A stretch of DNA of 64,000 nucleotides. It comes from Actinokineospora diospyrosa. Lineage in GTDB: Bacteria; Actinomycetota; Actinomycetes; Mycobacteriales; Pseudonocardiaceae. Shown one piece after another: positions 35,305 through 51,891 of this stretch. A model generated the notes under the pieces. The model saw only the letters and a list, made by a program, of their open reading frames with translations. It had not been told where the DNA came from and did no database searches. The DNA lies in contig NZ_JAMTCO010000009.1 of the NCBI RefSeq assembly GCF_024171925.1, forward strand, positions 400,705 to 464,704, read 5' to 3'. Position numbers and translations under genes: made by a program. Each line of letters begins with the position of its first letter. The stretch's first letter is position 1.

Positions 35305-35329
35305 GAACCTCTCCGGCCGATCCGGCTAC
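35305..35329 (+). promoter_or_regulatory. ECF sigma promoter GAACC-N15-GCTAC, left ABC operon
   Basis: GAACC at 35305-35309 and GCTAC at 35325-35329 are separated by exactly 15 bases. The same two boxes with the same spacing occur upstream of the ECF sigma gene of the cluster (42034-42058, minus). The start point should lie near 35336, giving a 30-base leader to the ATG at 35367 with its AGGAG site. The motif is the one reported, as I recall, for MibX/PspX-type sigma factors of the microbisporicin and planosporicin clusters. Confidence 0.8.
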
Positions 35330-35366
35330 ACACCCGGTGACCGCACAGACTTCGGCAGGAGCGACC

Positions 35367-36167
35367 ATGACACCGACCACGGAAGTACCCACCGTGGGCA
35401 CCCGCGACCACCCCCCGCTGCGCACCGTGGTGCAGGTGGAGTTGAGCAGACTGCGGCACGGTTTCCTCGCCTGGTACACGGTGCTCGCCCCGATCGTCAT
35501 CGCCATCCCGCTCTACCTCGGCTCGCTGTTCTCGCCGGAAGGCGCCTCCGGGCAGACCTGGCAGACCTTCAGCAACGTGACCCTCGAGTTCTGGGGCGTC
35601 CTGGTGCCGATGACCGCGGGACTGGCCGCGACCCTCTCGGTGCGCGCCGACCAGGACGCCTGGCGCATGTTGTTGTCCTACGCCGTCCCGCGCTGGCGGT
35701 ACTTCGCGGGCAAGTTCGGCGCGTTGGCGGTGCTGGGCCTGGTTTCCAGCACCGTGTTGGCCGCCGTCCTCGCCGCGGGCGCCCTGCTCAACGGCACGCT
35801 GGCGGCCTCGATCGGCGTCGTGCTCGCCGCGGCGTACCTGCCGTGGGTGGCGGGTCTGGCCAGCACCGCGCTGGCCCTGCTCGTGGCCGTGCGGTGGGGT
35901 TTCGGACCGGGCATCACCGTCGGCGTCGCCGGGTTGCTGTGCGGCGCGCTGACCGCGGACAAGGTGTTCTGGTACCTGATCCCGGTCGCCTGGCCGATGC
36001 GGGTGATCCTGCCGATCGCGGGCATCGGCCCCAACGGCATCGCGCTGCCCGCGGGCAGCCCCCTGGCCGACCACGGCGCGATCCCGGTGGCCCTGGGCCT
36101 CTCCGCCGTCCTCACCGCGCTCCTGCTGCTGCTCGGCGGCGCGCACATGAACCGCAAGGAGATCTGA
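35367..36167 (+). CDS. ABC-2 type permease, putative lantibiotic immunity/export
   Basis: 266 residues from ATG 35367 with GCAGGAGC at the correct distance (a GTG at 35337 is in frame and nearer the promoter). Six membrane helices in the ABC-2 arrangement are visible: VVQVELSRLRHGFLAWYTVLAPIVIAIPLYLGSLF, a large loop, VTLEFWGVLVPMTAGLAATLSVRADQDAWRMLLS with the conserved cytoplasmic helix, and further pairs to residue 255. This is the LanE/G or bacitracin-type immunity permease size. It forms a transporter with the ATPase 4 bp downstream. The sigma-type promoter in front makes it part of the lantibiotic regulon, presumably protecting the producer, although direct export is possible. Confidence 0.82.
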   Translation: MTPTTEVPTVGTRDHPPLRTVVQVELSRLRHGFLAWYTVLAPIVIAIPLYLGSLFSPEGASGQTWQTFSNVTLEFWGVLVPMTAGLAATLSVRADQDAWRMLLSYAVPRWRYFAGKFGALAVLGLVSSTVLAAVLAAGALLNGTLAASIGVVLAAAYLPWVAGLASTALALLVAVRWGFGPGITVGVAGLLCGALTADKVFWYLIPVAWPMRVILPIAGIGPNGIALPAGSPLADHGAIPVALGLSAVLTALLLLLGGAHMNRKEI

Positions 36168-36171
36168 TCCC

Positions 36172-36882
36172 ATGACGACGCTGGAAGTCTCCGCCCTGCA
36201 CAAGCACTACGGCGACCACCGCGCCCTCGACGGCATCGACCTCACCGTCGGCCAGGGCGAGGTGTACGGGCTGCTGGGGCCCAACGGGGCGGGCAAGACC
36301 ACGCTGATGAAGGTGGTGCTCGGCCTGCAACGACCGACCAGCGGCCACATCCGGCTCTTCGGCGAGCCCTACCACCGGTCCGCGCTGGCCCAGGTTGGCG
36401 CCCTGGTCGAGGTGCCGGGGCTGTGGCCGCACCTCGACGCCGACGCGCACCTGCGGGCGCACGCCCGCCTGCGCGGCGTGGACCACCGGTGGATCGACGG
36501 GGTGCTCGAGCAGGTGCGGCTGGGCGAGGTGCGCCACCGCGCCGTCTCGAAGTACTCCCTGGGGATGCGGTGGCGGCTGGGCATCGCGATCGCCCTGCTG
36601 GTCCGCCCCCGGTTCATCGTCCTGGACGAACCGACCAACGGGCTCGACCCGGTGGGCATCCGCGAGATGCGCGCGCTCATCCGGACCCTCGCGGGCGCGG
36701 GGACCACGATCATGGTGTCCAGCCACCAACTCGGCGAGATCGCCCAGGTCTGCGACCGGGTGGGGGTCCTCGTGGCGGGCCGGACGCACTACGAGGGCCC
36801 GGTCGACGGTCTCGCTGTGGACGGTGACCTGGAGGCCGGGTTCTTCCGCATCATCGACAGCGTCGGCGGCGGCGTGCGCTGA
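36172..36882 (+). CDS. ABC transporter ATPase, immunity type
   Basis: 236 residues starting at ATG 36172, four bases after the permease stop. Walker A is LLGPNGAGKTTLMKVV, the Q-loop region is LGLQRPTSGHIRLFGEPYHRS, Walker B is RPRFIVLDEPTNGLDPVGIREM and the H-loop is MVSSHQLGEI. The signature is the degenerate KYSLGMRWRLGIA rather than LSGGQ, which is characteristic of the LanF/BcrA immunity subfamily. It ends with a short Gly-rich tail. Together with the permease it should remove lantibiotic from the membrane. The gene converges on the LuxR-type regulator and is followed by a strong hairpin. Confidence 0.85.
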   Translation: MTTLEVSALHKHYGDHRALDGIDLTVGQGEVYGLLGPNGAGKTTLMKVVLGLQRPTSGHIRLFGEPYHRSALAQVGALVEVPGLWPHLDADAHLRAHARLRGVDHRWIDGVLEQVRLGEVRHRAVSKYSLGMRWRLGIAIALLVRPRFIVLDEPTNGLDPVGIREMRALIRTLAGAGTTIMVSSHQLGEIAQVCDRVGVLVAGRTHYEGPVDGLAVDGDLEAGFFRIIDSVGGGVR

Positions 36883-36969: not shown

Positions 36970-37620
36970 TCAGCCTGGACCGATCGACCGCCGGGTGGGC
37001 ACCACCCGCGCCTTGTGGCTCGCCGCGTTCATCCGGTACCGCAGTTCCGTCCGGCCCGCGACGCCCATGTCCTGGTAGAGACGCCGGATCCGGCGGTACA
37101 TCGAGCGTTCGGAGCAGTAGAACTGCTGCGCGATGGCGGAGATGCTCGTGGTGCCGCACAGCATGCGCACCAACCTGCCGTCGTCCTGGCGGGCCACCGG
37201 CGTGTCGCCGTCGTAGGTCAGCGCCGGGCCCACCGGGGCGCGCGCCGCGGGAACGGCGGCCGAGCAGGTGGTGAGCACCGCGTCGAGCTGCTTGTCGGTC
37301 GGCAGCCGGACGTTGAGCACACCGCTGGCCCCCGCGGAGATGGCCAGGAACGTTTGGTGCCCGCTGATGTCGTTGACCACGGCCAGGATCGGTACCAGGC
37401 ACCGGCTGCGGCGCAGCGAGCGCACCAGTTCGCGGTCCGGTTCGCTCGCCGCGGGCACCAGCAGCGCCGGGATGTCGACGAGGTCGGTGAACAGCGCCTC
37501 CGGCTCGTCGAACCGCACGACGACACCCGCCGCGGCCCAGTCGGTCACGGCGTCCGCGAGTTCGGCGCGCAATCTGTGGTGCGCGGCCAGGACCAGACCG
37601 CGCCATGCTGAATCCGCCAC
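36970..37620 (-). CDS. Orphan LuxR-type regulator of the lanthipeptide cluster (MibR-like)
   Basis: 216 residues from GTG 37620. The first 140 residues form a receiver-like alpha/beta domain without clear phosphorylation residues (GVVVRFDEPEALFTDLVDIPALLVPAA; CLVPILAVVNDISGHQTFLAISAGASGVLNVRLPTDKQLDAVL). The C-terminus is a LuxR/NarL-like helix-turn-helix: GTTSISAIAQQFYCSERSMYRRIRRLYQDMGVAGRTELRYRM. In the mib and psp clusters a similar orphan regulator activates the lanA operon, which lacks the sigma motif. The start overlaps nothing and a perfect 16-bp palindrome sits 52 bp upstream. It probably binds DNA as a dimer and is controlled by the sigma factor indirectly or by autoregulation. Confidence 0.72.
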   Translation of the reverse strand: MADSAWRGLVLAAHHRLRAELADAVTDWAAAGVVVRFDEPEALFTDLVDIPALLVPAASEPDRELVRSLRRSRCLVPILAVVNDISGHQTFLAISAGASGVLNVRLPTDKQLDAVLTTCSAAVPAARAPVGPALTYDGDTPVARQDDGRLVRMLCGTTSISAIAQQFYCSERSMYRRIRRLYQDMGVAGRTELRYRMNAASHKARVVPTRRSIGPG

Positions 37621-37672
37621 AGGGCCCCCATTCCCAAGCGTTCTGCTTCTGCTTTGCCCGTGCCCTACAAGA

Positions 37673-37688
37673 CTACTCCTAGGAGTAG
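37673..37688. promoter_or_regulatory. Perfect 16-bp palindrome upstream of the LuxR-type gene
   Basis: CTACTCCTAGGAGTAG is fully self-complementary and is centred 60 bp upstream of the regulator GTG. NarL/LuxR-type proteins often bind such sites. No second copy was found upstream of lanA. Autoregulation by the adjacent protein is the simplest reading. Confidence 0.5.
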
Positions 37689-37817
37689 GGTTGGTGAGCG
37701 GCAGAATGGGGACCAGGAACATTACCAACTGATGGCTTTGATATTTCCTTGACGCCTTACCCCGGGTTGTGCCCGAACTGTGCCCGCAGTGGACATTGTG
37801 GACGGATCGATGTCAGA

Positions 37818-39122
<1,305 letters not shown>

Positions 39123-39126
<4 letters not shown>

Positions 39127-39962
39127 TGGACTCCCTCCTTGGTTCGCACGCCGTCGCCCGTCGCCCGGCCACCCGCGCGCCAGGCGACGACCACCCGGGC
39201 GGCGAGGAAGAACAGCACGGCGCAGGCGAGCACCAGCACCAGGTTGAGCACGGCTGTCCCGGAGCTCGCGGCCGGGCTGAGCGGGCCGCTCTGGTCGCGG
39301 TCGGCCCAGATCCCGCGGGCGCCGAGCCAGGCCACCGCCTGGTAGCCGCCCAGCGGGGAGAGCACGGTCCCGGTCGGTGTCGGGATCGGCACCACGGCCG
39401 GGCTCAGCTGCGTCGCCCAGAACCAGGCCGCCACCACCAGCACCCGCGCCAGCGCGACCGGCAGCAGCAGCCCGAGCAGGCAGGCGAACGCGGTGATCGC
39501 GACCGCCGCGGGCAGCACGACGGTGAGCGCCCCGACCACGGCCACCACCAGCGGCGACACCTGCCCCGCCTGGACCGCGACCACCGCGCCGAGCAGCAGC
39601 ACGACCAGGAACACCGGGGCCAGCGCCACGCCGAGCGCACCGGCGAGTACCCCCGACATGCGGGTCGTGCGGCGGGCGGGCGTGGTGTCGAGCAGGTCGG
39701 CCAGCCCGGGGCGGGTGTGCTGCGTCAGCCGCCCGGCGAGCGCGACCCCCACCCCGACGACGGCGAACGTCGTGACCACCAGCACCGCCGTGCCGACCCG
39801 GCCCGCCGGGTCGGCGACCCCCATCACCGCGGGGGAGGACAGCGCCAGCAGCACGGCGAGCGCGGTGAGCGGCGCCAGCGACAGCCACAGCACCCGCCCC
39901 CGCGCGGCCATCCGCGCCTCGTACCACGCCGAACCCCGCAGCGCCGACCAGGTGCCGCTCAT
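39123..39962 (-). CDS. ABC permease (six helices), partner of the 38251 ATPase
   Basis: 279 residues from ATG 39962 with the previous gene's stop overlapping. Six hydrophobic segments follow a cytosolic helix (SALRGSAWYEARMAARGRVLW), ABC-2 like in layout: LAPLTALAVLLALSS, AVLVVTTFAVVGVGVALAG, then VALAPVFLVVLLLGAVVA and pairs to residue 265. The loop DTTPARRTTRMSG occurs where the conserved cytoplasmic helix should interact with the ATPase. It overlaps the ATPase gene by four bases. Together with the next permease it probably forms a heterodimeric channel. The substrate would be the lantibiotic or a related lipid II-disturbing compound; this is inferred from the operon. Confidence 0.8.
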
Positions 39963-40591
39963 CTCCGTGCCCCCTCGCTGAACTCGCGTCCATAGCCCAA
40001 CAGGTGTGCCGCCCGCGCGGCGAGCACGACGGCGAGCACCAGGTCCACGGCCACCCGGACCCCGAGCGCCGGCAGGACCCGCTCGAGCACGAACAGGTCG
40101 GCGAACCACGCCGCCAAGACAACCGTGGACGCTCCCGCGGTCGAGCGCAGCGCCACCGCCGCCCACGCGCCCACCCCCATCAGCAGCACCGCCAGACCGC
40201 ACACCGCCGCCAGCCGCGCGTAGCCCGCCGGGGCGGGCAGCAATGCCAGCGCCAGGGCGACCGCGCTCAGCAGCGTGCTCCCGCCCAGCAACGCGACGCG
40301 GCGGGCGAAGGTGGTCGGCAACGGTGTCGGCAGCGTGGTGTGCAGTTCAACCGCGGGTTCACCGGCGACGACCGCGGCCGTCGCCAGACCAGCGACCAAG
40401 GGCGCGAGCACCCGGGCGAGCCAGTCGCCGGTGAACCCCGCTCCCGGCGCCGCCAGCCCGGTGACCAGCAGCGCGATCGCCAGCAGTGGCGGCGCGGCGA
40501 GCAGGTGCCTGCCCGCGCGGCGCGCCTCGTACCGCCACACCCGCACGTCGTTCACACCTGGGGTGTAGCCGCCGGGCGCGCCGCGGTTCAC
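39959..40591 (-). CDS. Second ABC permease subunit
   Basis: 210 residues if translation starts at GTG 40591, chosen because this start overlaps the anti-sigma stop (GTGA). A second in-frame GTG at 40555 would give a 198-residue protein beginning VNDVRVWRYEARR, and neither has a strong ribosome site. Six hydrophobic segments (LLAAPPLLAIALLVTGLAA, VLAPLVAGLATAAVVAG, STLLSAVALALALL, YARLAAVCGLAVLLMGVGAWAAVAL and two more) follow a basic N-terminus. It is shorter than the neighbouring permease and overlaps it by four bases. Both likely form one transporter with the 38251 ATPase. Confidence 0.72.
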   Translation of the reverse strand: MNRGAPGGYTPGVNDVRVWRYEARRAGRHLLAAPPLLAIALLVTGLAAPGAGFTGDWLARVLAPLVAGLATAAVVAGEPAVELHTTLPTPLPTTFARRVALLGGSTLLSAVALALALLPAPAGYARLAAVCGLAVLLMGVGAWAAVALRSTAGASTVVLAAWFADLFVLERVLPALGVRVAVDLVLAVVLAARAAHLLGYGREFSEGARR

Positions 40592-41472
40592 GCCGGTTCC
40601 CACCGCCGCGCGGGCAACTGCCGGACCTGGTGGGTGGCCAGGGCGAACAGGGCGAGCGCGACGACCACCGTCCACGGCGTGGTGCCCCACACGTGCGCGA
40701 AGACCCGGCCGAGGCGTTCGGCGATGCCGCCGCGCGACAGCGAGGTCACCGACCCGAGGCACCAGAGCGCGACGGCGGCCGCGGCGCCGACACCGGGGGA
40801 GTAGCGGACCGCGCAGACGACCGCGGTGGCCGAGGCGAGCAGGGACTGGCCCAGCCACCCCGCGACCAGGTCCGGCACGCCCGTGCCCACCCCTGCCGCG
40901 TGCACCGCGACCGAGCAGCCCAGCGCGAGCAGCACGTCCACCGCGAGCACGAGGACGAGCCGGGCAGCGAAGACGGTGACCGGCGAGATCGGCAGCGCGT
41001 GCAGCAGGTCGGTGCGCGGGTCGGCGCGCCGGGTGCAGGTCGCGAGCGACCCGAGCAGCACGGTCAGCACCACGACGGCGGCGAAGCCGTGCGTCGCCAT
41101 CCGCGGGTCCGGGGTGAGCAGCGCGATCGCCGTGGCCGCCGCGAGCCCCAGCACGCTCGCGGGCAGCAGCAGGCGGGGCATCAGCCGCGCCTGCCACCGG
41201 ACCAGCAGGGCACCGGTGCGCCAAGCCCGGACCCGCCGCGGGGTTTCGGCCGGACGGGCCTCGGTTGCACGGGGGGCGGGTGCGGCGATGGCGGGCAGCA
41301 GCAGCGAGTCGAACGGGGGCGGCGCCAGCGGGGGTGCCAGCGCGTCGGCCGCCAGCCGGGTGGCCGCGGTGAGCCGCTGCCAGGACTCCCACCGCAGGCG
41401 GCACTCGGCGCAGGTGGCGACGTGCTGGGGGCGGTCCTGGCCGCGCAGGTCGTCGTCGGCGAGGTGGGTCAT
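40588..41472 (-). CDS. Zinc-finger membrane anti-sigma factor
   Basis: 294 residues from ATG 41472. The N-terminal 30 residues have HVATCAECR (His17, Cys21, Cys24), the H-x3-C-x2-C zinc motif of zinc-associated anti-sigma domains. A Pro/Ala-rich linker follows, then six membrane helices (about 100-285), with the loop ATCTRRADPRTDLLHALPISPVTV between helices 2 and 3. In the microbisporicin cluster the sigma factor is held by a six-helix membrane anti-sigma factor (MibW), and the layout here is the same. The start overlaps the sigma gene stop by four bases, the classical order for sigma/anti-sigma pairs. The protein would release the sigma factor in response to the lantibiotic or its precursor. 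Confidence 0.82.
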   Translation of the reverse strand: MTHLADDDLRGQDRPQHVATCAECRLRWESWQRLTAATRLAADALAPPLAPPPFDSLLLPAIAAPAPRATEARPAETPRRVRAWRTGALLVRWQARLMPRLLLPASVLGLAAATAIALLTPDPRMATHGFAAVVVLTVLLGSLATCTRRADPRTDLLHALPISPVTVFAARLVLVLAVDVLLALGCSVAVHAAGVGTGVPDLVAGWLGQSLLASATAVVCAVRYSPGVGAAAAVALWCLGSVTSLSRGGIAERLGRVFAHVWGTTPWTVVVALALFALATHQVRQLPARRWEPA

Positions 41473-42029
41473 GGCGTGCTCCTGGGAGCCTGGGACGGGC
41501 TGAGCCGACCGGCCAGCCGTCGTCGGGCGTGCGACATCCTGCTCTTGACGGTGCCGACCGGGATGTCGAGCGCGGCCGACACCTCCGGGTAGGACAGGTC
41601 CTCCACGAGCACCAGCACCAGCACCTCCCGCAGGTGTTCGGGCAGCTCCGCCACCGCGGTGGCGAGCGCCTCGCGTTCGACCCCGGCCAGCACCCGGTCC
41701 TCGACACCGGGCGCCTGGTCGGCGAGCTCGGCCGCCTCGTCGAGGTCGGTCTCCACCGGGGTGGCCTTGCGCAGCCGGTTGTGCGCCTGGCGGCGGGCCA
41801 CGCCGTAGAGCCACGCGCGGGCCGAGGCTTCGCCGCGGAAGCTGCCCGCTGACTGCCAGACTGCCAACCAGGTCTCCTGCAGGATCTCCTCGGCGACCCC
41901 GGCGTTGGCCGTCAACCGGCGCAGCAGCCGGAAGATCCCGCCGCTGTGCCGGTCGTACAGGCCGCGCAGGGCGTCCTGGTCGCCACCCGCCACGGCGGTC
42001 ATGAGCTGCTCGTCCGACCCCACACACAC
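41469..42029 (-). CDS. ECF sigma factor (MibX/PspX-like)
   Basis: 186 residues from GTG 42029 (further GTG codons at 42025 are out of frame, at 42023 in frame). Region 2 reads LRGLYDRHSGGIFRLLRRLTANAGVAEEILQETWLAVWQSAGSF and region 4 LPEHLREVLVLVLVEDLSYPEVSAALDIPVGTVKSRMSHARRRL, both complete, without a C-terminal extension. The GCTAC -10 box ends four bases before the start codon, so the transcript is leaderless or nearly so. It is followed by its anti-sigma gene with a four-base overlap. It should transcribe its own operon and the left ABC operon through the GAACC-N15-GCTAC motif and so control expression of immunity and regulation. Confidence 0.88.
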   Translation of the reverse strand: MCVGSDEQLMTAVAGGDQDALRGLYDRHSGGIFRLLRRLTANAGVAEEILQETWLAVWQSAGSFRGEASARAWLYGVARRQAHNRLRKATPVETDLDEAAELADQAPGVEDRVLAGVEREALATAVAELPEHLREVLVLVLVEDLSYPEVSAALDIPVGTVKSRMSHARRRLAGRLSPSQAPRSTP

Positions 42030-42033
42030 CTGT

Positions 42034-42058
42034 GTAGCAGGTGCCGCCCGCGCGGTTC
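42034..42058 (-). promoter_or_regulatory. ECF sigma promoter GAACC-N15-GCTAC, sigma operon
   Basis: Read on the minus strand, GAACC (42058-42054) and GCTAC (42038-42034) are separated by exactly 15 bases and are identical to the boxes at 35305-35329. It autoregulates the sigma gene. An inverted repeat CACCTG-tgtag-CAGGTG overlaps the -10 box and start codon, which may allow additional control. Confidence 0.8.
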
Positions 42059-42253
42059 ACGGCTGTGGCGCCGGTCCCACCGCCGGGTGGCTGCCGCCCC
42101 GGCTGACGTGACTGCCAGTTGTCCCCTACCGCCTTGAAGCGCCGCCCGAGCAGGGGTTCTGTGGATGTCGGTGGCCAGTCGAGGCCACCGCCGCGCGGGG
42201 AGTGACGGAACCGGGGCGCAGGCAGCGCGCTGGGGACCGACGAAGGAGACGCC

Positions 42254-42427
42254 ATGCCAACGATCGAGATGACCGCCCCTGCCGGGGCCGAGCTGGACCT
42301 GTTCGACCTGGACCTGGAGGTCAGCGTCGAGCAGATGTCGCTGACGCCCGCCATCACCAGCATCTCGCTGTGCACCCCCGGGTGCACCAGCGCTGGCGGC
42401 GGCAGCAACTGCAGCTTCTGCTGCTAA
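42254..42427 (+). CDS. lanA: Class I lanthipeptide precursor, NAI-107 (microbisporicin) family
   Basis: 57 residues from ATG 42254 with AAGGAGACGCC as ribosome site. Residues 1-33 form the leader, rich in Glu/Asp, with FDLDLEV (residues 17-23) as the FNLD-type box recognised by the LanB dehydratase and TPA as the probable cleavage end. The 24-residue core begins ITSISLCTPGC and ends SNCSFCC. From memory it differs from NAI-107 at only three positions: Ile for Val1, Ile for Trp4 and Ala for Pro14. All Ser, Thr and five Cys that form the four lanthionine-type rings and the terminal aminovinyl-cysteine are kept. The family binds lipid II. The gene is the first of the A-B-C-D-T-U-V operon and is too short for routine calling. 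Confidence 0.93.
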   Translation: MPTIEMTAPAGAELDLFDLDLEVSVEQMSLTPAITSISLCTPGCTSAGGGSNCSFCC

Positions 42428-42437
42428 ACGGTGCGTC

Positions 42438-42471
42438 GCGCCGGGTCGGGGGGACGCCCCCGGCCCGGCGC
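42438..42471 (+). promoter_or_regulatory. Attenuator-like hairpin between lanA and lanB
   Basis: A 15-base stem with one G-T wobble (42438-42452 with 42457-42471) and a four-base GACG loop begins 10 bp after the lanA stop and ends 29 bp before lanB. Such hairpins are common after lanthipeptide precursor genes, where they stop most transcripts or protect the short mRNA to give far more precursor than enzyme. Confidence 0.65.
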
Positions 42472-42500
42472 CACCCGACTCGACCCCTGGGGGCTGACCG

Positions 42501-45500
42501 ATGGACCCGCTGTTGCGAGCCTGGCCGGTGTTCCTGGTCCGCGCCCCGCTGGTGCCCGAGGCGGGCGGACCCGGTGTCGCCGACCAGGACGACCACCTCG
42601 GCGTGCTGCGCGCCGCCGTGGCCGACCCGGTGCTGACCGAGGCGATCACCCTGGCCAGCCCGACCCTGGGCGCGGTGCTCGCCAGGGTCGCCGCGGGCGG
42701 GGCGGCCGGGCTCAAGGCCAAGCAGGTGCGCCGGGCCGCGCTCTCGGTGCTGCGCTACGACATCCGGACCCGGACCCGCCCGACCCCGTTCGGCCTGTTC
42801 GCCGGGGTGAGCGCGGGCGGCTTCGGCGCGCCGCAGGTGCTGCGCGGCTCGGCGCACCGGCACCGCACGCACGTCGACATGAGCTGGCTGGCCCGGGTCG
42901 TGCACCGCGCCGAGGCCGACCCCGGGGTGCTGGCCGGGCTGCGCGTGCGCGCCCACCAGGCCCTGGTCCACCGCGGCGACCGGGTGGTGCTGGAGACCCC
43001 GTCCGGGCTGGGCGCGGTGCCCGGGCAGACGACCCGCTCGTTCGTGTCCGCGCGCCGCTCCCCGGTCGTGGCCGCCGCGCTGGCGCTGGCCGCCACCCCG
43101 ATCGCGGTCACCGACCTGGTGGCGGTCCTCGCCGAGCGGTTCGCCGGTGGCGCGGCCGCCCCGGCGGCGAAGCTGGTGCGCTCGCTGGTCGAGCAGGAGT
43201 TGCTGATCACCGACCTGCGCCCGCCGCTCGACGGCGGCGACCCGCTGCGCCACGTCCTGTCCCGGCTGCCCGAGGGCGACCTGCGCACCCGGCTGACCGA
43301 GCTGGACCGGTTGCGGGAGAAGTACGACGCCCTCGCCCCCGGTGAGGGAACCGCGGCGCTGGTCGAGCTGGTCGACGCGGCGCGGGAGGTCGAGCCGTTC
43401 GACACGCCGCTGCACGTCGACACCCGGGTGGACCTGCGGGTCACCGCGGCGGAGGCGGTGCGCGAGGAGGTCGAGCGGGCCGCGACCGTGCTGTGGCGGC
43501 TCTCGCCACCCCGGTTGGGCATGCGGCCGCTGCGCGGGTTCCACGGCCGTTTCCTGGAGCGCTACGGCGCCGACCGGCTGGTCCCGGTCCTGGAACTGCT
43601 GGACACCACCCGGTCCCTCGGCGCCCCGCCCGGCTACGAGTGGCCCCCGAGCGAGGCGGTGGCCGAGACCGCGGCCGAGCCGTCGAGCACCCGGCGCGAT
43701 CGGGCGGTCAGCCGGTTGGTGCTGGACGCGTCGCGCACCGGGTCGCGCGAGGCCGTGCTGACCGACGAGGTGCTCGCCGAACTCGCCCACGACGACGCCG
43801 ATCCCGCGGATCTGCCCAACTCGTGCGAGCTCTACGTGCACGTGGTCGAGCGGGCCGATGGCGACTTCCGGGTCGTGCTCTCGCCCAGTCCCGGGTCCCA
43901 CCACGCCGGGGCGACCACGGCCCGGTTCCACGACCTGCTCCCGCACTGGCCGCACGAGCCGCACCCGGTGCACGTCGAGGGGGCGGTTCTCGCGGACTTG
44001 GCCTTCACGCCGCGGTCCGGTCGCGCGGCCAACCTCGCGCACACGCCGCCGACGACCGGGCGGCGCATCGCGGTCGGGCTGCCGGACGCCCCTGGCGTGG
44101 AGGAGATCCCGCTGGCCGAGGTCGCCGTCGGCGCGACGCTGGAGCGCCTCTACGCGGTGCACGTGCCGACCGGCCGCGAGCTCGTCCCCGTGCTGCCGAA
44201 CATGGTCAGCCCCGCCGTCCAGGCGCCCAACGCCATCCGCCTGCTGTTCGAGCTCGGGATGGAGGGGCAGCGGCTGTGGGAGCCGTGGAACTGGGGGCCG
44301 ATGGCGAACGCGCCCTTCCTGCCCCGGGTCCGCTACGGCCGGTCCATCCTCGCGCCCGCCACCTGGCGGCTGGACGAGCTGCGCGGCCACGACGACGAAG
44401 CCGACTTCGACGCGGGCCTGGCGCGGTGGCGCGAGCAGTGGGCCGTGCCCGACCGGGTGCTGCTCGTCAGCACCGACCAGCGGCTGCTGGTCCACCTGGA
44501 CAACCGGTGGCACCGGCGGTTGCTGCGCGACGAACTGCGCCGCGACCCCGACCTCATCGCCCAGGAGGTCGCCGGTGGCGACGAGACCGTCGGCGACGGC
44601 CACACCCGCGAGCTCGTCGTCGCCCTGGTCCCGCGACCGCACCGGGCACGGCCGCCGCACGTCGCGCACGTCGTCGACCGCCCCGCGCGCTCACCGCTGG
44701 CGGGGGACTGGCTGTACCTGCTGGTCCACGGTTCCCGGCAGGGGCAGGACGACCTGCTGCGCGACGAGGTGCCCGCGCTCGTGCGACTCGCCGCCGACAC
44801 GGGCGCCGACCGGTGGTTCTTCATCCGCTACACCGACGCCGACGGCCACCACCTGCGGCTGCGGTTCCACGGCGACCCCGCCCTGCTGTGGTCGCGTCTG
44901 CTGCCCGCGGCGAGCGCTCTGCTGGCGCGGTGGCAGGAAGACGGGCTCGTGGGCGCGCACCGGGTGCAGCCGTATGAGCCGGAACTGGAGCGCTACGGGG
45001 GTATCGACGCGCTTGAGGCGGCGGAACGCGTCTTCTGCGAGGACAGCGCCGCGGCCATCGCGTTGCTGCGGTTGGCCAAGAGCTCCCCGTTCTCGTTGGA
45101 CGCCTTGGGGGCGATCTCGGTCGCGTCGTTGGCGCACGCCTTCGGGCACCCGCCGCCGGGGACGCCGTGGATCACCCCCACCGGGGAGGCGGCCGAGTCC
45201 TGGCTGACGATCACCGGCACCCGGCGCGACCTGCCGCAGGCCTACCGCGCCGACCCGGCCCGTTGGCAGGGGTGGATCGACCCGGCGGCCGGGTGGCCGG
45301 GGCTGGGCGCCGATGGCGCGCCCGTGCTCGCCGCGCTCGCGGCTCGGGACGCGGCGGTGCGCGACTACGCACGGCTGGTCGCCGATCTGATCGCCGAGGG
45401 GCGCAGCGCCGCACCGTTGGCGCGCGTGGTCGGCAGCCTGCTGCACATGACGTGCAACCGGCTCCTCGGCGGCTCGTCCGAGCGCGAGCGGGCCGTGCTG

Positions 45501-45557
45501 GGCATCGCCAGGGGAGCGGTGCAGGACAACGGGAACAGGCGGAGGCACCGAGCATGA
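42501..45557 (+). CDS. lanB: Lanthipeptide dehydratase LanB
   Basis: 1018 residues, the size of full-length class I dehydratases. The N-terminal glutamylation domain (residues 1 to about 640) has RYDIRTRTRPTPFGLFAGVSAGGFG near residue 90 and the family motif region SRTGSREAVLTDEVLAEL and RRIAVGLPDAP. The C-terminal SpaB_C/elimination domain includes DWLYLLVHGSRQGQDDLLRDEVPAL, DRWFFIRYTDADGHHLRLRFHG and ERYGGIDALEAAERVFCEDS. It uses glutamyl-tRNA to activate Ser and Thr in the precursor and eliminates glutamate to Dha and Dhb. It is co-transcribed behind lanA, and its stop overlaps lanC (ATGA). All Ser/Thr-rich positions of the core are substrates. Confidence 0.93.
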   Translation: MDPLLRAWPVFLVRAPLVPEAGGPGVADQDDHLGVLRAAVADPVLTEAITLASPTLGAVLARVAAGGAAGLKAKQVRRAALSVLRYDIRTRTRPTPFGLFAGVSAGGFGAPQVLRGSAHRHRTHVDMSWLARVVHRAEADPGVLAGLRVRAHQALVHRGDRVVLETPSGLGAVPGQTTRSFVSARRSPVVAAALALAATPIAVTDLVAVLAERFAGGAAAPAAKLVRSLVEQELLITDLRPPLDGGDPLRHVLSRLPEGDLRTRLTELDRLREKYDALAPGEGTAALVELVDAAREVEPFDTPLHVDTRVDLRVTAAEAVREEVERAATVLWRLSPPRLGMRPLRGFHGRFLERYGADRLVPVLELLDTTRSLGAPPGYEWPPSEAVAETAAEPSSTRRDRAVSRLVLDASRTGSREAVLTDEVLAELAHDDADPADLPNSCELYVHVVERADGDFRVVLSPSPGSHHAGATTARFHDLLPHWPHEPHPVHVEGAVLADLAFTPRSGRAANLAHTPPTTGRRIAVGLPDAPGVEEIPLAEVAVGATLERLYAVHVPTGRELVPVLPNMVSPAVQAPNAIRLLFELGMEGQRLWEPWNWGPMANAPFLPRVRYGRSILAPATWRLDELRGHDDEADFDAGLARWREQWAVPDRVLLVSTDQRLLVHLDNRWHRRLLRDELRRDPDLIAQEVAGGDETVGDGHTRELVVALVPRPHRARPPHVAHVVDRPARSPLAGDWLYLLVHGSRQGQDDLLRDEVPALVRLAADTGADRWFFIRYTDADGHHLRLRFHGDPALLWSRLLPAASALLARWQEDGLVGAHRVQPYEPELERYGGIDALEAAERVFCEDSAAAIALLRLAKSSPFSLDALGAISVASLAHAFGHPPPGTPWITPTGEAAESWLTITGTRRDLPQAYRADPARWQGWIDPAAGWPGLGADGAPVLAALAARDAAVRDYARLVADLIAEGRSAAPLARVVGSLLHMTCNRLLGGSSERERAVLGIARGAVQDNGNRRRHRA

Positions 45558-46867
45558 CCGGCGCAGCGCAACGACTGTCCACAGCGGAGGCGGTGGCGCT
45601 GGTGGCGCACCGGCTGGCCGACCCGGACGCGGTCGCCGCGATCGCCGACCGCCCGGACAACGTGGAGCCGATCTACGGCGCGTCCCAGTGGGGGCCGCTG
45701 ACCCTGGCCAACGGCCTGCCCGGCATCGCGTTGCTGTACGCCGAACTGGCCGCCACCGACGACCGCTGGTCCGCGGTCGCGCACCGGCAGGTCAGCCGGG
45801 CCGCCGAGCTGATGTCGTCGCAGGCCGCCAACGGGCTCTACGCCGGACCCGCCGCGTTGCTGGCCGCTGTCCTCCGACTGCAACCGCACTACGCGACTTT
45901 GCGCCGCAAGCTGATCGCGTGGGTGGCCGACGACCAGCGGACCCGACTGGAGGCGTGCGCGGCGCGCCGGGACCTGGGCGTGTCCTGGGCGCACTATGAC
46001 GTCGTCAACGGGCTTTCCGGTACTGCCCGGTTGTTGCTCGACGCCGGTCCTTCGGTGCATGGGGTCGTCGAGGATACCTTGCGGTACCTGGTAACCCTGT
46101 GCGAACCGATCACTGTGGACGGTGTGCGCGTGCCCGGGTGGTGGGTGCCCGCCGAGCTGCAGCCGGTCGCGCGGGACGCGGAGCAGTACCCGCGCGGGGA
46201 CTTCAACCTCGGCCTGGCACACGGCATCGCGGGCCCCCTGGCACTGTTCGCCGCCGCGCTCGACCGCGGCCACGAGGTACCACGCCAGCGCGACGCCATG
46301 CGCCGGATCGCCACCTGGCTGCTCGACCGACGCAAGCACGACACGGCTGGCGTCTACTGGCCGTGCAGGCTCTCCTGGGACGAGGAGACACACCCGGGAC
46401 CTGAGCCGGTCTTCACCCGCGCAGCCTGGTGCTACGGCGCCCCTGGTGTTGTCTCCGCAGTGCACCAAACGGGCCTCGCCCTCGGCGAATCGCAGTGGTG
46501 CGCCGCCGCCGTCGAGGGCCTACGGACCACTGTGGACCGTCCAGAGAACGAGTGGAACCTCGACGGCCCAACGGTATGCCACGGCTACGCGGGCCTACTC
46601 CAAATCGTGCGCCGAGTCGGCACAACCTCCGGCGACCCCGCACTACTCGCCGCCATCCCCGGTCTGGTCGACCGCACCCTCAGCTACGCCACCCCCGACG
46701 CACCGTTCGTGTTCCCCCACCTCGTGCCGGACTCACCCCTGGGCAGACACGCCGGCACCGGCTACCGCCGCCTCAACGTCGCCGGAATGCTCGAAGGCGC
46801 CGCCGGGGTCGCCTGTGCCCTGCTGCCCTCAGCCGGGGCCTGGGACACCGCCCTGATGCTGGCCTGA
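45554..46867 (+). CDS. lanC: Lanthionine cyclase LanC
   Basis: 437 residues from ATG 45554, overlapping the lanB stop by four bases. The LanC alpha/alpha toroid ends with the zinc ligands AWCYGAPGV (Cys293) and TVCHGYAG (Cys342, His343), the complete set needed to activate the Cys thiols. Other landmarks are NGLPGIALLYAELA, NGLSGTARLLLDAG, NLGLAHGIAGPLALFAAAL and the GMLEGAAGVACALL end. It adds Cys thiols to Dha/Dhb, making the four lanthionine/methyllanthionine rings of the core. Its stop is followed by a GAGGAG site and lanD 10 bases later. The sequence is of normal length, without fusion or broken motifs. Confidence 0.93.
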   Translation: MTGAAQRLSTAEAVALVAHRLADPDAVAAIADRPDNVEPIYGASQWGPLTLANGLPGIALLYAELAATDDRWSAVAHRQVSRAAELMSSQAANGLYAGPAALLAAVLRLQPHYATLRRKLIAWVADDQRTRLEACAARRDLGVSWAHYDVVNGLSGTARLLLDAGPSVHGVVEDTLRYLVTLCEPITVDGVRVPGWWVPAELQPVARDAEQYPRGDFNLGLAHGIAGPLALFAAALDRGHEVPRQRDAMRRIATWLLDRRKHDTAGVYWPCRLSWDEETHPGPEPVFTRAAWCYGAPGVVSAVHQTGLALGESQWCAAAVEGLRTTVDRPENEWNLDGPTVCHGYAGLLQIVRRVGTTSGDPALLAAIPGLVDRTLSYATPDAPFVFPHLVPDSPLGRHAGTGYRRLNVAGMLEGAAGVACALLPSAGAWDTALMLA

Positions 46868-46877
46868 GGAGAACACC

Positions 46878-47513
46878 ATGCCCACCCCACCCGCCCAGCC
46901 CACCCACCCCAACCCGCCACCCACCCACTCCAGCCCACCCGCCCAGCCCGCGCACGCAAACCCGCCCACCCATCCAAGTCCGCTCACCCCGCCCCGCAAG
47001 CTCCTGCTGGGCGTCAGCGGGTCGGTTGCTGCGCTTGGGTTGCCCGGTTACCTGTATGCGTTCCGGGCCGCGGGCGTCAGCGAGATCATCGCTGTGGTCA
47101 CCACCTCCGCCCTGCAGTTCTTGCCGGTGACTGGGTTGGCGGCGTTGTGCGACCGGGTTTGCACCGACGGCGACTCGTCGCTCGGCCATGTTGCGCTGGC
47201 TCGGTGGGCTGAGCACACGCTGGTGCTCCCGGCCACCGCGCACCTGCTCGGCTGCCTGGCCAACGGGTTGGCCCCCAGCCTGCTGGCGACCACCCTGCTC
47301 GCGGTGGACGGCCCGGTCACCCTCGCCCCCGCGATGAACGCGGCGATGTGGCGGCGGCCCGCCGTGCGGCGCAACGTCGCTACCCTGCGCGCCGATGGCC
47401 ACCAGGTCATCGACCCGGTTCCGGGCGCGGTCTACGAGGTCGCCAGCCGCGCCGTGGTGGCGGGCATAGCGGTGCCGCCGCCCGCGGTTGTGCTTGAGCG
47501 GATCAGCGCGTGA
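46878..47513 (+). CDS. lanD: Flavoprotein Cys decarboxylase LanD (HFCD)
   Basis: 211 residues. From residue 39 it is a normal HFCD flavoprotein: KLLLGVSGSVAALGLPGYLYAF, WAEHTLVLPATAHLLGCLANGLAPSLLATTLLAVDGPVTLAPAMN and GHQVIDPVPG, with the PAMN-type substrate motif (LAPAMN) and the SGSVAA flavin loop. It decarboxylates the C-terminal Cys of the precursor to an enethiol, which forms aminovinyl-cysteine with Ser21 of the core. Residues 2-38 are an unusual Pro/Thr/His/Ser-rich tail built from NPPTHP-like repeats. The stop overlaps the ABC ATPase start by four bases. The enzyme would give the product the C-terminal AviCys of NAI-107 rather than the free carboxylate of planosporicin. Confidence 0.92.
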   Translation: MPTPPAQPTHPNPPPTHSSPPAQPAHANPPTHPSPLTPPRKLLLGVSGSVAALGLPGYLYAFRAAGVSEIIAVVTTSALQFLPVTGLAALCDRVCTDGDSSLGHVALARWAEHTLVLPATAHLLGCLANGLAPSLLATTLLAVDGPVTLAPAMNAAMWRRPAVRRNVATLRADGHQVIDPVPGAVYEVASRAVVAGIAVPPPAVVLERISA

Positions 47514-48424
47514 ACGCCGCGTTTGACGTGCGTGACATCGTGGTCCGCTACGGGCGGCGCACCGCGGTTGACGGGGTGTCGCTGAGCGCCGCGCCCGGCA
47601 CGATCGTCGCCCTGCTGGGCCCGAACGGGGCGGGCAAGTCGACGCTGCTGCGCGCGGTGTCCACCGCCGTGCCGCCCGACGAGGGGCGGATCGAGGTGTT
47701 CGGCCACGACGTCGCCCGCGACCCGGTCGCCGCGCGCGCCCGGATCGGGGTGGTGTTCCAGGAGCGCACCCTCGACCCCGACCTGTCGGTGTGGCGCAAC
47801 CTGTGGTTCCACGCCCGGCTGTTCGGCCTGAGCAGACCGCGCGCGCGGGCCAGGATCGACGAGGTGCTCGAGCGGTTCGGGCTCGCCGACCGGCGCGAGG
47901 ACACCGTCGCGCAGTTGTCCGGCGGGCTCGCCAGGCGCCTGGAGATCGCCAGGGCGCTGGTGCACCGGCCGGGCCTGGTCGTGCTGGACGAGCCGACCAC
48001 CGGCCTGGACCCCGACGCGCGCCGCGACGTCTGGGCCGACCTGCGGCGCCTGCGCGACGAGCACCGGGTCAGCGTCCTCTACGCGACGCACTACCTCGGC
48101 GAGGCGGAGCTGGCCGACCACATCGCGATCATCCACAATGGAGTCGTCGTGCGCCGAGGATCGCCTGCAGAGCTCAAGAGCGGGTTAGCTGCCTCGGCCC
48201 TTCGACTATCCACTGAAGACGATGCGAGCGCGGCGCGACAGCTGTCCTCGGCCGGGTTCGACGCGCGGGTGTCGGTCGAGGGCGTGTCGGTGCGCTGCGC
48301 CCGACCGGAGAGCCACGTCGCCGAGGTCGTGCGCGCGGTGTCTGTCGCGGTTCGCGAGGTGGCCGTCGTGGCGCCCTCGCTCGACGACGTCTACTTCGCC
48401 ACCACCGAGGGGAGTTCGACGTGA
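47510..48424 (+). CDS. ABC exporter ATPase (LanT-like, MibT position)
   Basis: 304 residues from GTG 47510, with GTGA overlap to lanD. DrrA/CcmA-type ATPase: Walker A LLGPNGAGKSTLLRAV, Q-loop VVFQERTLDPDLSVWRNLWFHARL, signature QLSGGLARRLEIARALV, Walker B LVVLDEPTTGLDPDARRDV and H-loop LYATHYLGEAEL. A C-terminal extension of about 80 residues is rich in Ser/Ala. It forms a two-gene exporter with the permease overlapping it by four bases. Unlike LanT of lacticin type it has no peptidase domain, so leader removal must be done by an unlinked protease. It exports the modified precursor or the mature peptide. Confidence 0.87.
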   Translation: MNAAFDVRDIVVRYGRRTAVDGVSLSAAPGTIVALLGPNGAGKSTLLRAVSTAVPPDEGRIEVFGHDVARDPVAARARIGVVFQERTLDPDLSVWRNLWFHARLFGLSRPRARARIDEVLERFGLADRREDTVAQLSGGLARRLEIARALVHRPGLVVLDEPTTGLDPDARRDVWADLRRLRDEHRVSVLYATHYLGEAELADHIAIIHNGVVVRRGSPAELKSGLAASALRLSTEDDASAARQLSSAGFDARVSVEGVSVRCARPESHVAEVVRAVSVAVREVAVVAPSLDDVYFATTEGSST

Positions 48425-49185
48425 GCGGCACCGCCATCGCCGACGTGGGCCGGGCACTGGGCGTGGTCGCCGCCCGCGACCTGCACCGGCAGGCCCGCCA
48501 CCCCGGAGTGCTCGTCGCGCAGGGCGTGCAGGTGCTGTTCTTCCTGCTGGTCTACGCGATCGGGTTCGACGGGATGATCGGCTCGGTCGACGGGCTGCCG
48601 TTCAGCGCGTACGTCTACCCCGGCATCGTCGCCATCCAGGTGGTGACCCTCGGGGTGAGTTCCGGGCTGACCTACGCCTTCGACCGCGAGTACGGGATGC
48701 TGCGGGAGATGCTCGTGGCGCCGGTTCCCCGGCTGTGCCTGCCGTTGGGCAAGGTCGTGGCGACGGCGGTCCTGGCCGGTGGGCAGGCCGCGGTGATGCT
48801 GGCCTTCGCCCCGTTGCTCGGGTTGCCGCTGAGCCTCGTCGGTTACCTCGGCGGGGTGCTGGCGTTCGCGGTCGTCTGCGTGGTGTTCGGCTTGGCGGGT
48901 GTGCTCCTGGCGACGCTCGTCCCCCAGGTGCAGACGCTGCAGTCGGTGGTGCAGATGGCGATGTACCCGCTGTTGTTCCTCTCCGGTTCGGTGTTCCGCC
49001 CGGACGCCGGGCCGGGGTGGCTGTCCGCGGTCATGCGTATCAACCCGATGACCTACGCGACGGACGCGATCCGGCACCTGCTGATCCCCGGGCACGGCGC
49101 GTTCCCGCTGTGGTTGGACCTCGTGGTGCTCGCCGGGCTCACCGCGGTGCTGGCCACCGTGCTGCGCTGGAAGGTGGGCCGGTGA
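48421..49185 (+). CDS. ABC-2 exporter permease (MibU position)
   Basis: 254 residues from GTG 48421, overlapping the ATPase. Six membrane helices are present: HPGVLVAQGVQVLFFLLVYAIGF, SAYVYPGIVAIQVVTLGVSSGL, then VVATAVLAGGQAAVMLAFAPLLG, VGYLGGVLAFAVVCVVFGLAGVLLATL, QMAMYPLLFLSGSVF and the last pair to residue 250. The GSVFRPDAGPGWLSAVMRINPMTYATDAIR region is the family signature of NodJ/DrrB-type permeases. It forms an exporter with the preceding ATPase. The stop overlaps the next gene by four bases, as in the T-U-V order of the mib operon. Confidence 0.88.
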   Translation: MSGTAIADVGRALGVVAARDLHRQARHPGVLVAQGVQVLFFLLVYAIGFDGMIGSVDGLPFSAYVYPGIVAIQVVTLGVSSGLTYAFDREYGMLREMLVAPVPRLCLPLGKVVATAVLAGGQAAVMLAFAPLLGLPLSLVGYLGGVLAFAVVCVVFGLAGVLLATLVPQVQTLQSVVQMAMYPLLFLSGSVFRPDAGPGWLSAVMRINPMTYATDAIRHLLIPGHGAFPLWLDLVVLAGLTAVLATVLRWKVGR

Positions 49186-50267
49186 AGCAGATCGATTGGC
49201 TGACCGACAACCTGGCCTGGTTCGACCCGGCCGTGTGGGACGAGTTCCTGCCCGCCCGGCCGTTCCCCGGCGGCCCGCTGTTGGAGCTGCTCCTGCTGTG
49301 CGACACCGTCGACTGTGGACCGTTGACCGGTCGCGCCCTGGAACTCGCCGACCGGATCACCGCGACCGACCGGTTCCGGGCGGGTTTGTACCGCGGTGAC
49401 GCTCTGTTCACCTACCACGTGTGGCTGCTGGCGCTGATGGGCCGCCTCGGTGCGCCGTCCCCGTTGCTCGGCTCGGCCCAGGCACTGCTGCACGCGGGTA
49501 TCCGACCACCGCTGGACGGGGTCGCGGCCCTGGAAGCGCGCTACGCCAACGACCTGGCCGGGTTACGCAGCCCGCACCTGCCGCCGCTCGGGCACCTGTA
49601 CCGGCGCTGGCGGGAGGGCCAACACCTCGACCCGTTGCGGATGGTCGGCCCCGAGTGCTACGCCCTGACCCACGCGGTGTTCTACGTGACCGGGTTCGGC
49701 CGCGTCCCGTTGCCGCCAGATGCCGAACTCGACCGCACCGCGCGGTTGCTCGCGGCTGCCCATCTCGCCACCGGCGACCACGACCTCGGCGCGGAGCTGT
49801 TCCACACGGCGTTGCTGGCGGGCGGCCCGGCCGGGCTCGCCCCCGCGCACCACAGGTTGACGCGCGCCGTCGACCCGGATGGATATGTCGCGGGTCCGCT
49901 GCACAACCCCTCGATCCTCGCCAAGCTCACCGGCCGCAAGACCCAGGCATACCGGTTCGGCACCGGCTACCACACCACCCTCGTCACCGCGCTCGCCCTG
50001 GCCGCATGGCCCGCGCATCCGCCAACCGGCAGGGCCGTCGACGAGCTGTCCACCGCTCTCGTCCTCGCTGTGCGCGATCGCGATCTCTCCCGCACCGCGA
50101 GCCTGCTGCTCACCGCGGCCGCGGCGAACAAGAACGACCCGACGATCGTCGCGGCCACAACGTACCTGCGGTCGCAGCGCCAACCGGACGGTTCCTTCGG
50201 GATCCCGGCCGATCCCGACCTCACCGCCACCTGCGTGGCCGCCTTGGCGGCCGTGCACCGGAACTGA
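49182..50267 (+). CDS. LanV-like protein (toroid-type, DUF6895-like), unknown role
   Basis: 361 residues from GTG 49182 (overlap with the permease stop). The protein is helical throughout without a signal peptide or membrane helix. The C-terminus RSQRQPDGSFGIPADPDLTATCVAALAAVHR is typical of the alpha/alpha-toroid repeat of the DUF6895/terpenoid-cyclase-like superfamily, and HLATGDHDLGAELFHTALLAG and RFGTGYHTTLVTALALAAW have the same style. In microbisporicin-type operons a gene named V occupies this place; its exact function is not known to me. Its position at the end of the biosynthetic operon suggests a late step or assistance to LanB/LanC. No metal-ligand pattern is evident. Confidence 0.75.
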   Translation: MKQIDWLTDNLAWFDPAVWDEFLPARPFPGGPLLELLLLCDTVDCGPLTGRALELADRITATDRFRAGLYRGDALFTYHVWLLALMGRLGAPSPLLGSAQALLHAGIRPPLDGVAALEARYANDLAGLRSPHLPPLGHLYRRWREGQHLDPLRMVGPECYALTHAVFYVTGFGRVPLPPDAELDRTARLLAAAHLATGDHDLGAELFHTALLAGGPAGLAPAHHRLTRAVDPDGYVAGPLHNPSILAKLTGRKTQAYRFGTGYHTTLVTALALAAWPAHPPTGRAVDELSTALVLAVRDRDLSRTASLLLTAAAANKNDPTIVAATTYLRSQRQPDGSFGIPADPDLTATCVAALAAVHRN

Positions 50268-51054: not shown

Positions 51055-51891
51055 TTGCTGGATCTGGACATGATGACAACGCGACTCAAACCCGGTTTGG
51101 GAAAGGTGAACCAGCGCTGGGTGAGTGCGTTGCCCGATCAACTCGCGGCGTTGGTCGGCGAGTGGGAACTCGACCTCGGCGCGGGGTTCGACTCCGGCGC
51201 GACCTCGGTGGTGCTCGGCTGCGCCGGACCGCTGGGCGACGCCGTGCTCAAGCTCGCGCCGGACCCGTACGCGCTGGCCGAGGAGGTCGCCGCGCTGCGC
51301 CAGTTCGCCCCGAGCGGGCGGGTTCCCCGGGTGCTCGCGACGGCCAGGGGCGCGGTGCTGTTGGAGGCCATTCGGCCGGGAACGCTGGTCGAATTGCTCC
51401 CGCAGGCACCGACACCGGTCGAGTACGCCCAGTTCCTGGGAGAGTTGCACGCGGCGGGCGATCCGGCGAGCGCCCCCCGTGCTCTTGGCGATTGGCTGGA
51501 ACTGCTCTACGCCACCGGTGAGCGCAACGGCGCCGACGTCGCGCGGTCGCGGCGGATCACCACGGGCCTGCTCGCCGACCCGGTGGACCCGGTCCTGCTG
51601 CACGGTGACCTGCACCTGGGCAACGTCCTCGCCTCGGACGCCAGGGGGATGGTCGCCAAGAACCCCACGGCCTGCGCGGGTGATCCGTGCTTCGACGCGG
51701 CGGACTTCGTGCTCGAGGGCTGGGACCGGGCGGCCATGGTGTGGCGCCGCGACGAGCTGGCGCGGGCCGCGGGCCTGGACGTCGACCGGTTGGACGCCTG
51801 GTGCCGGGCACTCGCCCCGCTCGGCGCGGCCCGGTCACCGATCCCCGACCGGGTCACCGAACTGCTGGCATTCGGGCGCGGTGAGTACTGA
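51055..51891 (+). CDS. Aminoglycoside-phosphotransferase-like protein (possible self-resistance)
   Basis: 278 residues from TTG 51055, whose AGGAGG lies 10 bases upstream; ATG codons at 51070 and 51073 are too far from it. The kinase-like fold of the APH(6)/hydroxyurea phosphotransferase type shows GAGFDSGATSVVLGC as the nucleotide loop, AVLKLAPDPYALAEEVAALRQF as the Lys-containing strand, HGDLHLGNVLASD (Asp185 catalytic) and AGDPCFDAADFV. The magnesium-binding IDP triplet that should follow the catalytic loop reads KNP (Asn203), so activity may be altered. It is first in the NRPS/PKS operon, one base before the MFS gene, suggesting resistance or modification of the product. Confidence 0.72.
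   Translation: MLDLDMMTTRLKPGLGKVNQRWVSALPDQLAALVGEWELDLGAGFDSGATSVVLGCAGPLGDAVLKLAPDPYALAEEVAALRQFAPSGRVPRVLATARGAVLLEAIRPGTLVELLPQAPTPVEYAQFLGELHAAGDPASAPRALGDWLELLYATGERNGADVARSRRITTGLLADPVDPVLLHGDLHLGNVLASDARGMVAKNPTACAGDPCFDAADFVLEGWDRAAMVWRRDELARAAGLDVDRLDAWCRALAPLGAARSPIPDRVTELLAFGRGEY

Follow-up and report, generated by a model that had tools for sequence, protein, structure and literature searches.

A probable NAI-107/planosporicin-group lantibiotic cluster in Actinokineospora diospyrosa whose core lacks both tailoring sites of NAI-107

NAI-107 (microbisporicin), known from Microbispora, is a preclinical antibiotic for which higher potency with a chlorinated Trp4 has been reported (PMC8659048, PMC4973701). 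It carries 5-chlorotryptophan at position 4 and dihydroxyproline at position 14 (PMC4973701, PMC4539421) and binds lipid II via its N-terminal rings and the pyrophosphate (PMC8183687). For its biosynthetic genes, PMC4973701 names a mibABCDTUV operon, marks a putative attenuator 3' of mibA in a figure legend and gives GAACC-N15-GCTAC as the consensus of MibX promoters, with no such site before lanA in mib; feed-forward induction has also been published for Microbispora. Planosporicin-type systems are not known to contain LanD and have cores with Glu14 and His22, and the gallidermin/nisin family is usually under two-component control. Here we describe a locus in Actinokineospora diospyrosa, contained in a stretch of 64,000 nucleotides (hereafter the window; positions 400,705 to 464,704 of contig NZ_JAMTCO010000009.1, or C9), that is very probably a complete-looking class I lantibiotic cluster of the NAI-107 (microbisporicin)/planosporicin group. 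Our comparison with mib rests on PMC4973701, PMC10715042 and the Protein Data Bank (PDB) entries 5ehk and 2mh5.

The precursor gene, lanA, lies at position 442958 of C9 in a host genome of 8.11 Mb and 29 contigs, and translates as MPTIEMTAPAGAELDLFDLDLEVSVEQMSLTPAITSISLCTPGCTSAGGGSNCSFCC. It exceeds the cut-offs of two curated NCBIfam models, TIGR03731 for the gallidermin/nisin family (42.3 bits, cut-off 29.3) and NF038155 for FDLD class I lanthipeptides (32.2 bits, cut-off 20), and it matches PDB entry 2mh5, Lantibiotic 107891 (E 4e-6), which we take to be NAI-107, in agreement with the letters of that entry. Compared with the NAI-107 core printed in a table of PMC10715042, VTSWSLCTPGCTSPGGGSNCSFCC, the core shows exactly three differences: Val1Ile, Trp4Ile and Pro14Ala. 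The ring residues, five Cys paired with S3, T8, S13, S18 and S21, are all conserved (ring positions follow the letters of 2mh5 and prior knowledge), as is the PA pair ahead of the cleavage site, and the core fits the NAI-107/planosporicin group pattern xTSxSxCTPGCTSxGGGSxCSxCC. With its FxLD leader motif and its position adjoining separate LanB and LanC genes, the precursor has the hallmarks of a class I lanthipeptide. The original prediction, namely that a class I precursor in front of LanB, LanC and LanD encodes a close NAI-107 variant with these three substitutions and every ring-forming residue kept, is thus borne out by the core alignment, the 2mh5 match and the precursor in PMC10715042, and by the two NCBI models and the presence of all three enzymes directly downstream. 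We regard the lanA observation as confirmed. It is unlikely, however, that the gene is missing from current annotation, as the prediction had supposed, since two NCBI models match it above cut-off and relatives on Priestia plasmids are annotated as lantibiotics.

The gene order downstream of the precursor, A-B-C-D-T-U-V, is identical to that of the published mibABCDTUV operon. LanB scores 1061 bits against 5ehk, which is presumably MibB, compared with 229 and 158 bits for the next distinct solved dehydratases. The WCYG and CHG motifs of LanC are zinc ligands, and PAMNAAMW is typical of LanD. The presence of a LanD gene, as in NAI-107 proper, predicts a product with a C-terminal aminovinyl-cysteine. 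The hairpin between lanA and lanB reaches -49.9 kcal/mol (z -2.32; an equal or better fold arises in 3 of 200 shuffles) and may be an attenuator like the putative one in mib. The operon is followed by a gap of about 0.8 kb and then by unrelated genes.

The remainder of the system is delimited by the published promoter consensus. GAACC-N15-GCTAC occurs at three exact sites in the window, where 0.07 would be expected and where none of 100 shuffles reaches three. Each site heads a unit and none precedes lanA, as published for mib, which suggests that the system extends over roughly 35.3-50.3 kb (Table 1); going by the motif, a finding of 174 bases grows to one of about 15 kb. The sites accompany a pair of genes for an extracytoplasmic function (ECF) sigma factor and a candidate anti-sigma factor, a combination characteristic of the NAI-107/planosporicin group from which ECF control may be predicted. 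The -10 elements of these sites lie close to the frames of X, J and F, ending 4, 9 and 7 bases ahead of the respective earliest possible start codons; the mRNAs may therefore be leaderless, or translation may begin further in.

Table 1. Features of the proposed cluster, in window coordinates (ABC, ATP-binding cassette)
Feature	Position	Strand	Basis and remarks
GAACC-N15-GCTAC promoter candidate	35305..35329	+	7 bases before permease frame 35337, immunity transporter genes
Immunity permease candidate	35337..36167	+	TIGR03732 MutE/EpiE 109.5 bits, below cut-off 145.2
Immunity ATPase candidate	36172..36882	+	TIGR03740 lantibiotic protection 236 bits, best of 181 families, below cut-off 309.75
Regulator candidate (R position)	36970..37728	-	weak C-terminal helix-turn-helix; start uncertain
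DUF2511 protein, lipoprotein-like (Q position)	37818..38243	-	lipobox-like LGGC
ABC transporter ATPase (Z position)	38251..39126	-	family match, position
Membrane protein, probable ABC permease by position (Y)	39123..39962	-	no Pfam match
Membrane protein (J position)	39959..40555	-	position
GAACC-N15-GCTAC promoter candidate	40565..40589	-	before J-Y-Z-Q-R unit
Anti-sigma candidate (MibW position)	40588..41472	-	N-terminal HxxxCxxC, then about 5 hydrophobic segments; no Pfam family above cut-off
ECF sigma factor (MibX position)	41469..42029	-	family match
GAACC-N15-GCTAC promoter candidate	42034..42058	-	before sigma gene
lanA	42254..42427	+	57-aa precursor; 33-aa leader with FDLD motif, predicted cleavage after TPA, 24-aa core ITSISLCTPGCTSAGGGSNCSFCC
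Strong hairpin, possible attenuator	42429..42500	+	between lanA and lanB
lanB, full-length dehydratase	42501..45557	+	both dehydratase domains; closest solved structure 5ehk
lanC cyclase	45554..46867	+	WCYG and CHG motifs; chosen start, ATG behind GGAGG
lanD flavoprotein cysteine decarboxylase	46878..47513	+	PAMNAAMW motif
ABC transporter ATPase (MibT position)	47510..48424	+	family match and gene order
ABC-2 permease (MibU position)	48421..49185	+	family match and gene order
DUF6895 protein (MibV position)	49182..50267	+	operon's last gene; family match and gene order

Two further observations concern the surroundings and the host. An aminoglycoside/hydroxyurea phosphotransferase-like frame (51055-51891) and a non-ribosomal peptide synthetase module (52612-56349) come right after the cluster and probably belong to a separate locus. 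A second, distant LanB (34% identity) is encoded elsewhere in the host genome (G000:C27:2510-4984), and at least one LanB match is found in 12 of the 16 genomes of the genus.

From the genes, their order, the placement of the motif and its conservation we infer how expression, product, target and regulation might fit together. LanB would dehydrate seven of the eight Ser/Thr residues of the core, LanC would form four (methyl)lanthionine rings and LanD would create the C-terminal aminovinyl-cysteine ring, after which the peptide would be exported by the ABC pair and its leader cut after the PA pair by a protease presumably encoded elsewhere. The product would bind the lipid II pyrophosphate through rings A and B and so block cell wall synthesis in Gram-positive competitors. 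As for control, the membrane-bound anti-sigma factor may sequester the ECF sigma factor until it is released by envelope stress or by the peptide; the freed sigma factor would activate three targets, namely its own gene, the unit of transporter and regulator genes, and the immunity transporter. Through the regulator (R), the lanA operon might then be switched on as well. The pathway is predicted to run without a halogenase or P450 arm, on a core without the two residues that such enzymes would modify.

With Ile4 and Ala14, the core is without both tailoring sites of NAI-107, and we asked what enzymes the genome holds. A search of the whole genome with PF04820 (tryptophan halogenase) yields a single match, on contig C11, covering profile positions 2-62 at 26.3 bits (cut-off 21); the same search is also positive in 5 of 14 control genomes. 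As a halogenase this candidate was rejected: the protein scores 252.5 bits against the NCBIfam geranylgeranyl reductase family (cut-off 158.8), and we read the PF04820 match as probably a shared stretch binding flavin adenine dinucleotide. Apart from this geranylgeranyl-reductase-type protein, PF04820 has no match in the genome, and among the matches listed no cytochrome P450 lies within about 115 kb of lanA; in both respects the locus departs from NAI-107 proper. P450 matches occur at 29 places genome-wide, and the ones listed for C9 lie at or below position 327823. Both absences fit the loss of Trp4 and Pro14, and with neither enzyme found, 5-chlorotryptophan and hydroxyproline would not be expected at these places. 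With Trp4 and Pro14 replaced, and with searches revealing neither a halogenase anywhere in the genome nor a P450 near the cluster, the predicted product is a plain five-ring form rather than full NAI-107.

The mass of this form can be calculated. Seven dehydrations plus one oxidative decarboxylation reproduce the formula printed for NAI-107 in PMC4539421, C94H127ClN26O27S5, which serves as a check of the calculation; the same chemistry applied to the present core predicts C88H129N25O25S5, at 2095.819 Da, which corresponds to an [M+2H]2+ ion of 1048.917. Lipid II binding by this product is inferred from its ring A/B motif, by analogy with NAI-107. Regarding potency, NAI-107 congeners without chlorine are described as less active and the single one without hydroxylation as only slightly less active (PMC8659048), absence of chlorination/hydroxylation markedly lowers potency according to PMC4973701, and the minimum inhibitory concentrations given for one S. 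aureus strain are 2 mg/L for planosporicin and at most 0.13 mg/L for microbisporicin (PMC4539421). We anticipate that the present peptide would show activity, though less than NAI-107.

How widespread is the system? Relatives of lanA are present in 3 of 16 genomes of the genus: that of the window, that of Actinokineospora inagensis DSM 44258 (locus L002, NZ_AXWW01000016.1), whose core is identical over 24 residues, and a third species (genome G009, locus L016), whose core, VTSVSLCTPGCTSPGGGSNCSFCC, keeps Pro14. A three-row profile matches 7 of 390 genomes of the family, the additional ones being planosporicin-like precursors in G366, G367 and G255 and a divergent one in G185. Evenly drawn samples reach further out with little gain: in the class, 1 of 394 genomes matches, namely the window itself, and the 2 matches among 396 genomes of the phylum are the window plus a distant precursor. 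Scanning public genome contigs returned six loci, of which the five besides A. inagensis match at 46-65% and have cores that share the opening ITSISLCTPGC before diverging. In a plasmid collection there was no close copy of the precursor; 12 Priestia records show about 51% identity over 75% of it, and carry lantibiotic annotation, and 83 records have LanBs below 60% identity. At the divergent locus in G185 (L022), a lanA lies near 9900-10030 on the minus strand with core ITSVVVCTPGCGPSVGTFCTACCC, alongside related regulatory genes, LanB, C, D and V; its precursor is possibly that of another lantibiotic.

The regulatory parts recur along with the precursor. In A. inagensis the ECF motif heads the same three units as in the window, and the motif occurs two, two and three times at the planosporicin-like loci L019, L020 and L021. 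The anti-sigma gene is found in 12 of 386 genomes of the family: all seven with lanA, plus G139, G320, G220, G227 and G092. Among the latter, G139, from another genus, has a broken remnant of the cluster from which lanA and parts of X and B are missing; G320 has part of W together with J, Y, Z and Q on a contig of 3.3 kb; and G092 shows a match of 21.6 bits without cluster neighbours. Weak relatives of the sigma/anti-sigma/ABC module at L028 (G227:C5:47000-66900) and L027 (G220:C37:2000-21900) have no lan genes in the 20 kb examined; at L028, two GAACC-N15-GCTAC sites lie inside the module and one elsewhere. The proposal that the module is general and unrelated to lantibiotics is partly true outside the genus (G220, G227), whereas inside it the module is found with lanA only (3 of 16 genomes). 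Possibly the module serves in general as a sensor of peptides or of envelope stress and was recruited by lantibiotic clusters. Separately, a CTGCCA box upstream of lanA (window 42100-42253) is present in all six sequences aligned, i.e. the window, L002, L016, L019, L021 and L022 (L020 was omitted, being nearly identical to L019), and is a candidate binding site of the R regulator.

A number of points weigh against the reading of the locus as a complete-looking, conserved cluster without tailoring enzymes. The identity of the core with that of A. inagensis says little about selection: between the two, the core differs by one synonymous nucleotide and the leader by 15 nucleotides, and 4526 of 20000 random single changes likewise leave the core unaltered. 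A. inagensis has a P450 frame (C12:51791-52657) about 4 kb outside its cluster, which we did not count into the cluster because the window has no listed P450 there; in G009, the nearest P450 among the matches listed is about 46 kb away, and on the other side the contig ends about 8 kb past lanA. Nor does the motif recur uniformly: L016 in G009 has exact sites before X and J and none exact before the immunity genes, and L022 has one site only. Finally, the letters J, Y, Z, Q, R and V were assigned from position and prior knowledge, the regulator and anti-sigma candidates exceed no curated cut-off (three of four relatives of the R candidate match GerE/LuxR, all below cut-off), and the immunity models matched below theirs.

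What, then, does the cluster represent? One scenario, which we hold tentatively and with slightly less than even confidence, is that Actinokineospora has a plain NAI-107 pathway, i.e. a planosporicin-type gene set plus LanD without halogenase or P450, which either is ancestral or results from a joint loss of these enzymes and the residues they target. If true, it would make the peptide a natural Trp-free NAI-107 that keeps its function without the chlorine that reportedly raises potency and, in the ancestral case, chlorination and hydroxylation would have been added by Microbispora. A different possibility is that the cluster is silent or decayed in the host strain and yields no product, as might be suspected from the rarity of the precursor, present in only three of 16 species of the genus, and from the relic in G139. 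We consider this unlikely, given that the 16 cluster frames listed in Table 1 are free of stops, the LanC and LanD motifs are present and the three ECF sites match exactly.

Less likely still is a planosporicin-type system with an NAI-107-like core, whose product would have a normal last ring without aminovinyl-cysteine. The gene set is indeed the same apart from D, with L019-L021 sharing matches to A, B, C, T, U, V, X, W, Y, Z, Q, R, E and F. LanD, however, has a match in the window, in A. inagensis, in the third species and in the divergent L022, and none in L019, L020 or L021. Moreover, the planosporicin-like cores at these loci, VTSVSYCTPGCTSEGGGS[N/G]CSHCC, differ from the present core at positions 14 and 22, where position 22 is Phe as in NAI-107. 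That lanA is a chance open frame, conceivable for 57 codons in GC-rich DNA with its many overlapping frames, is refuted to the point of being vanishingly improbable by curated models matched above cut-off, by a gene found in 3 of 16 genomes of the genus with an identical core in one other, and by a neighbourhood that recurs in other species.

Turning to novelty, the core ITSISLCTPGCTSAGGGSNCSFCC was not found in a search of open-access literature text, and the claim that no described lantibiotic has this exact core stands for that text, though not for supplements, patents or subscription papers. Among the literature matches listed, the fragment TSISLCTPGC alone is shared; it is also shared with nisin. 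Matches to a text search for CTPGCTSAGG and GGGSNCSFCC in the open-access literature print NAI-107, and none contain CTPGCTSAGG. Excerpts of three Actinokineospora papers (PMC9864124, PMC9973853, PMC13238742) give no description of such a peptide; those of PMC13238742 mention, without a sequence, a class I/II lanthipeptide region in another strain that might or might not be this cluster. The core is not unique to the host, being encoded identically in the public A. inagensis DSM 44258 genome, and genome-mining sets (PMC11162475, with 1172 precursors of aminovinyl-cysteine peptides, and PMC7268733) may for that reason already list it. What is real, going by the encoded core, is that a known antibiotic family, the NAI-107/planosporicin group, gains a predicted member without either tailoring site. 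This natural relative, which is missing both decorated residues and shows no sign of the two enzymes, yet retains the rings and the genes for regulation and immunity, lends itself to a comparison of what position 4 contributes at lipid II. It also provides engineers with a simpler set of enzymes, and it is an instance in which tailoring enzymes and the residues they act on were lost or gained in a linked manner.

Set against the described systems, the locus is closest to NAI-107/microbisporicin (mib, Microbispora), with which it shares 21 of 24 core residues, all ring residues, the A-B-C-D-T-U-V order, the ECF promoter consensus and LanD, and from which it differs by Ile1, Ile4 and Ala14 and in that no halogenase was detected genome-wide and no P450 is listed within about 115 kb. 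With the gallidermin/nisin family (TIGR03731) it has the ring A/B motif SxxxCTPGC and class I enzymes in common, the C-terminal ring block and ECF-sigma control being different here. The planosporicin-type loci L019-L021 share with it the X-W, Y-Z-Q-R, A-B-C-T-U-V and E-F units and the ECF motif, but they have no LanD match and a core with Glu14 and His22, and the window is unlike them on both counts. Judged by their gene content, the Actinokineospora clusters combine a planosporicin-type gene set with a predicted LanD.
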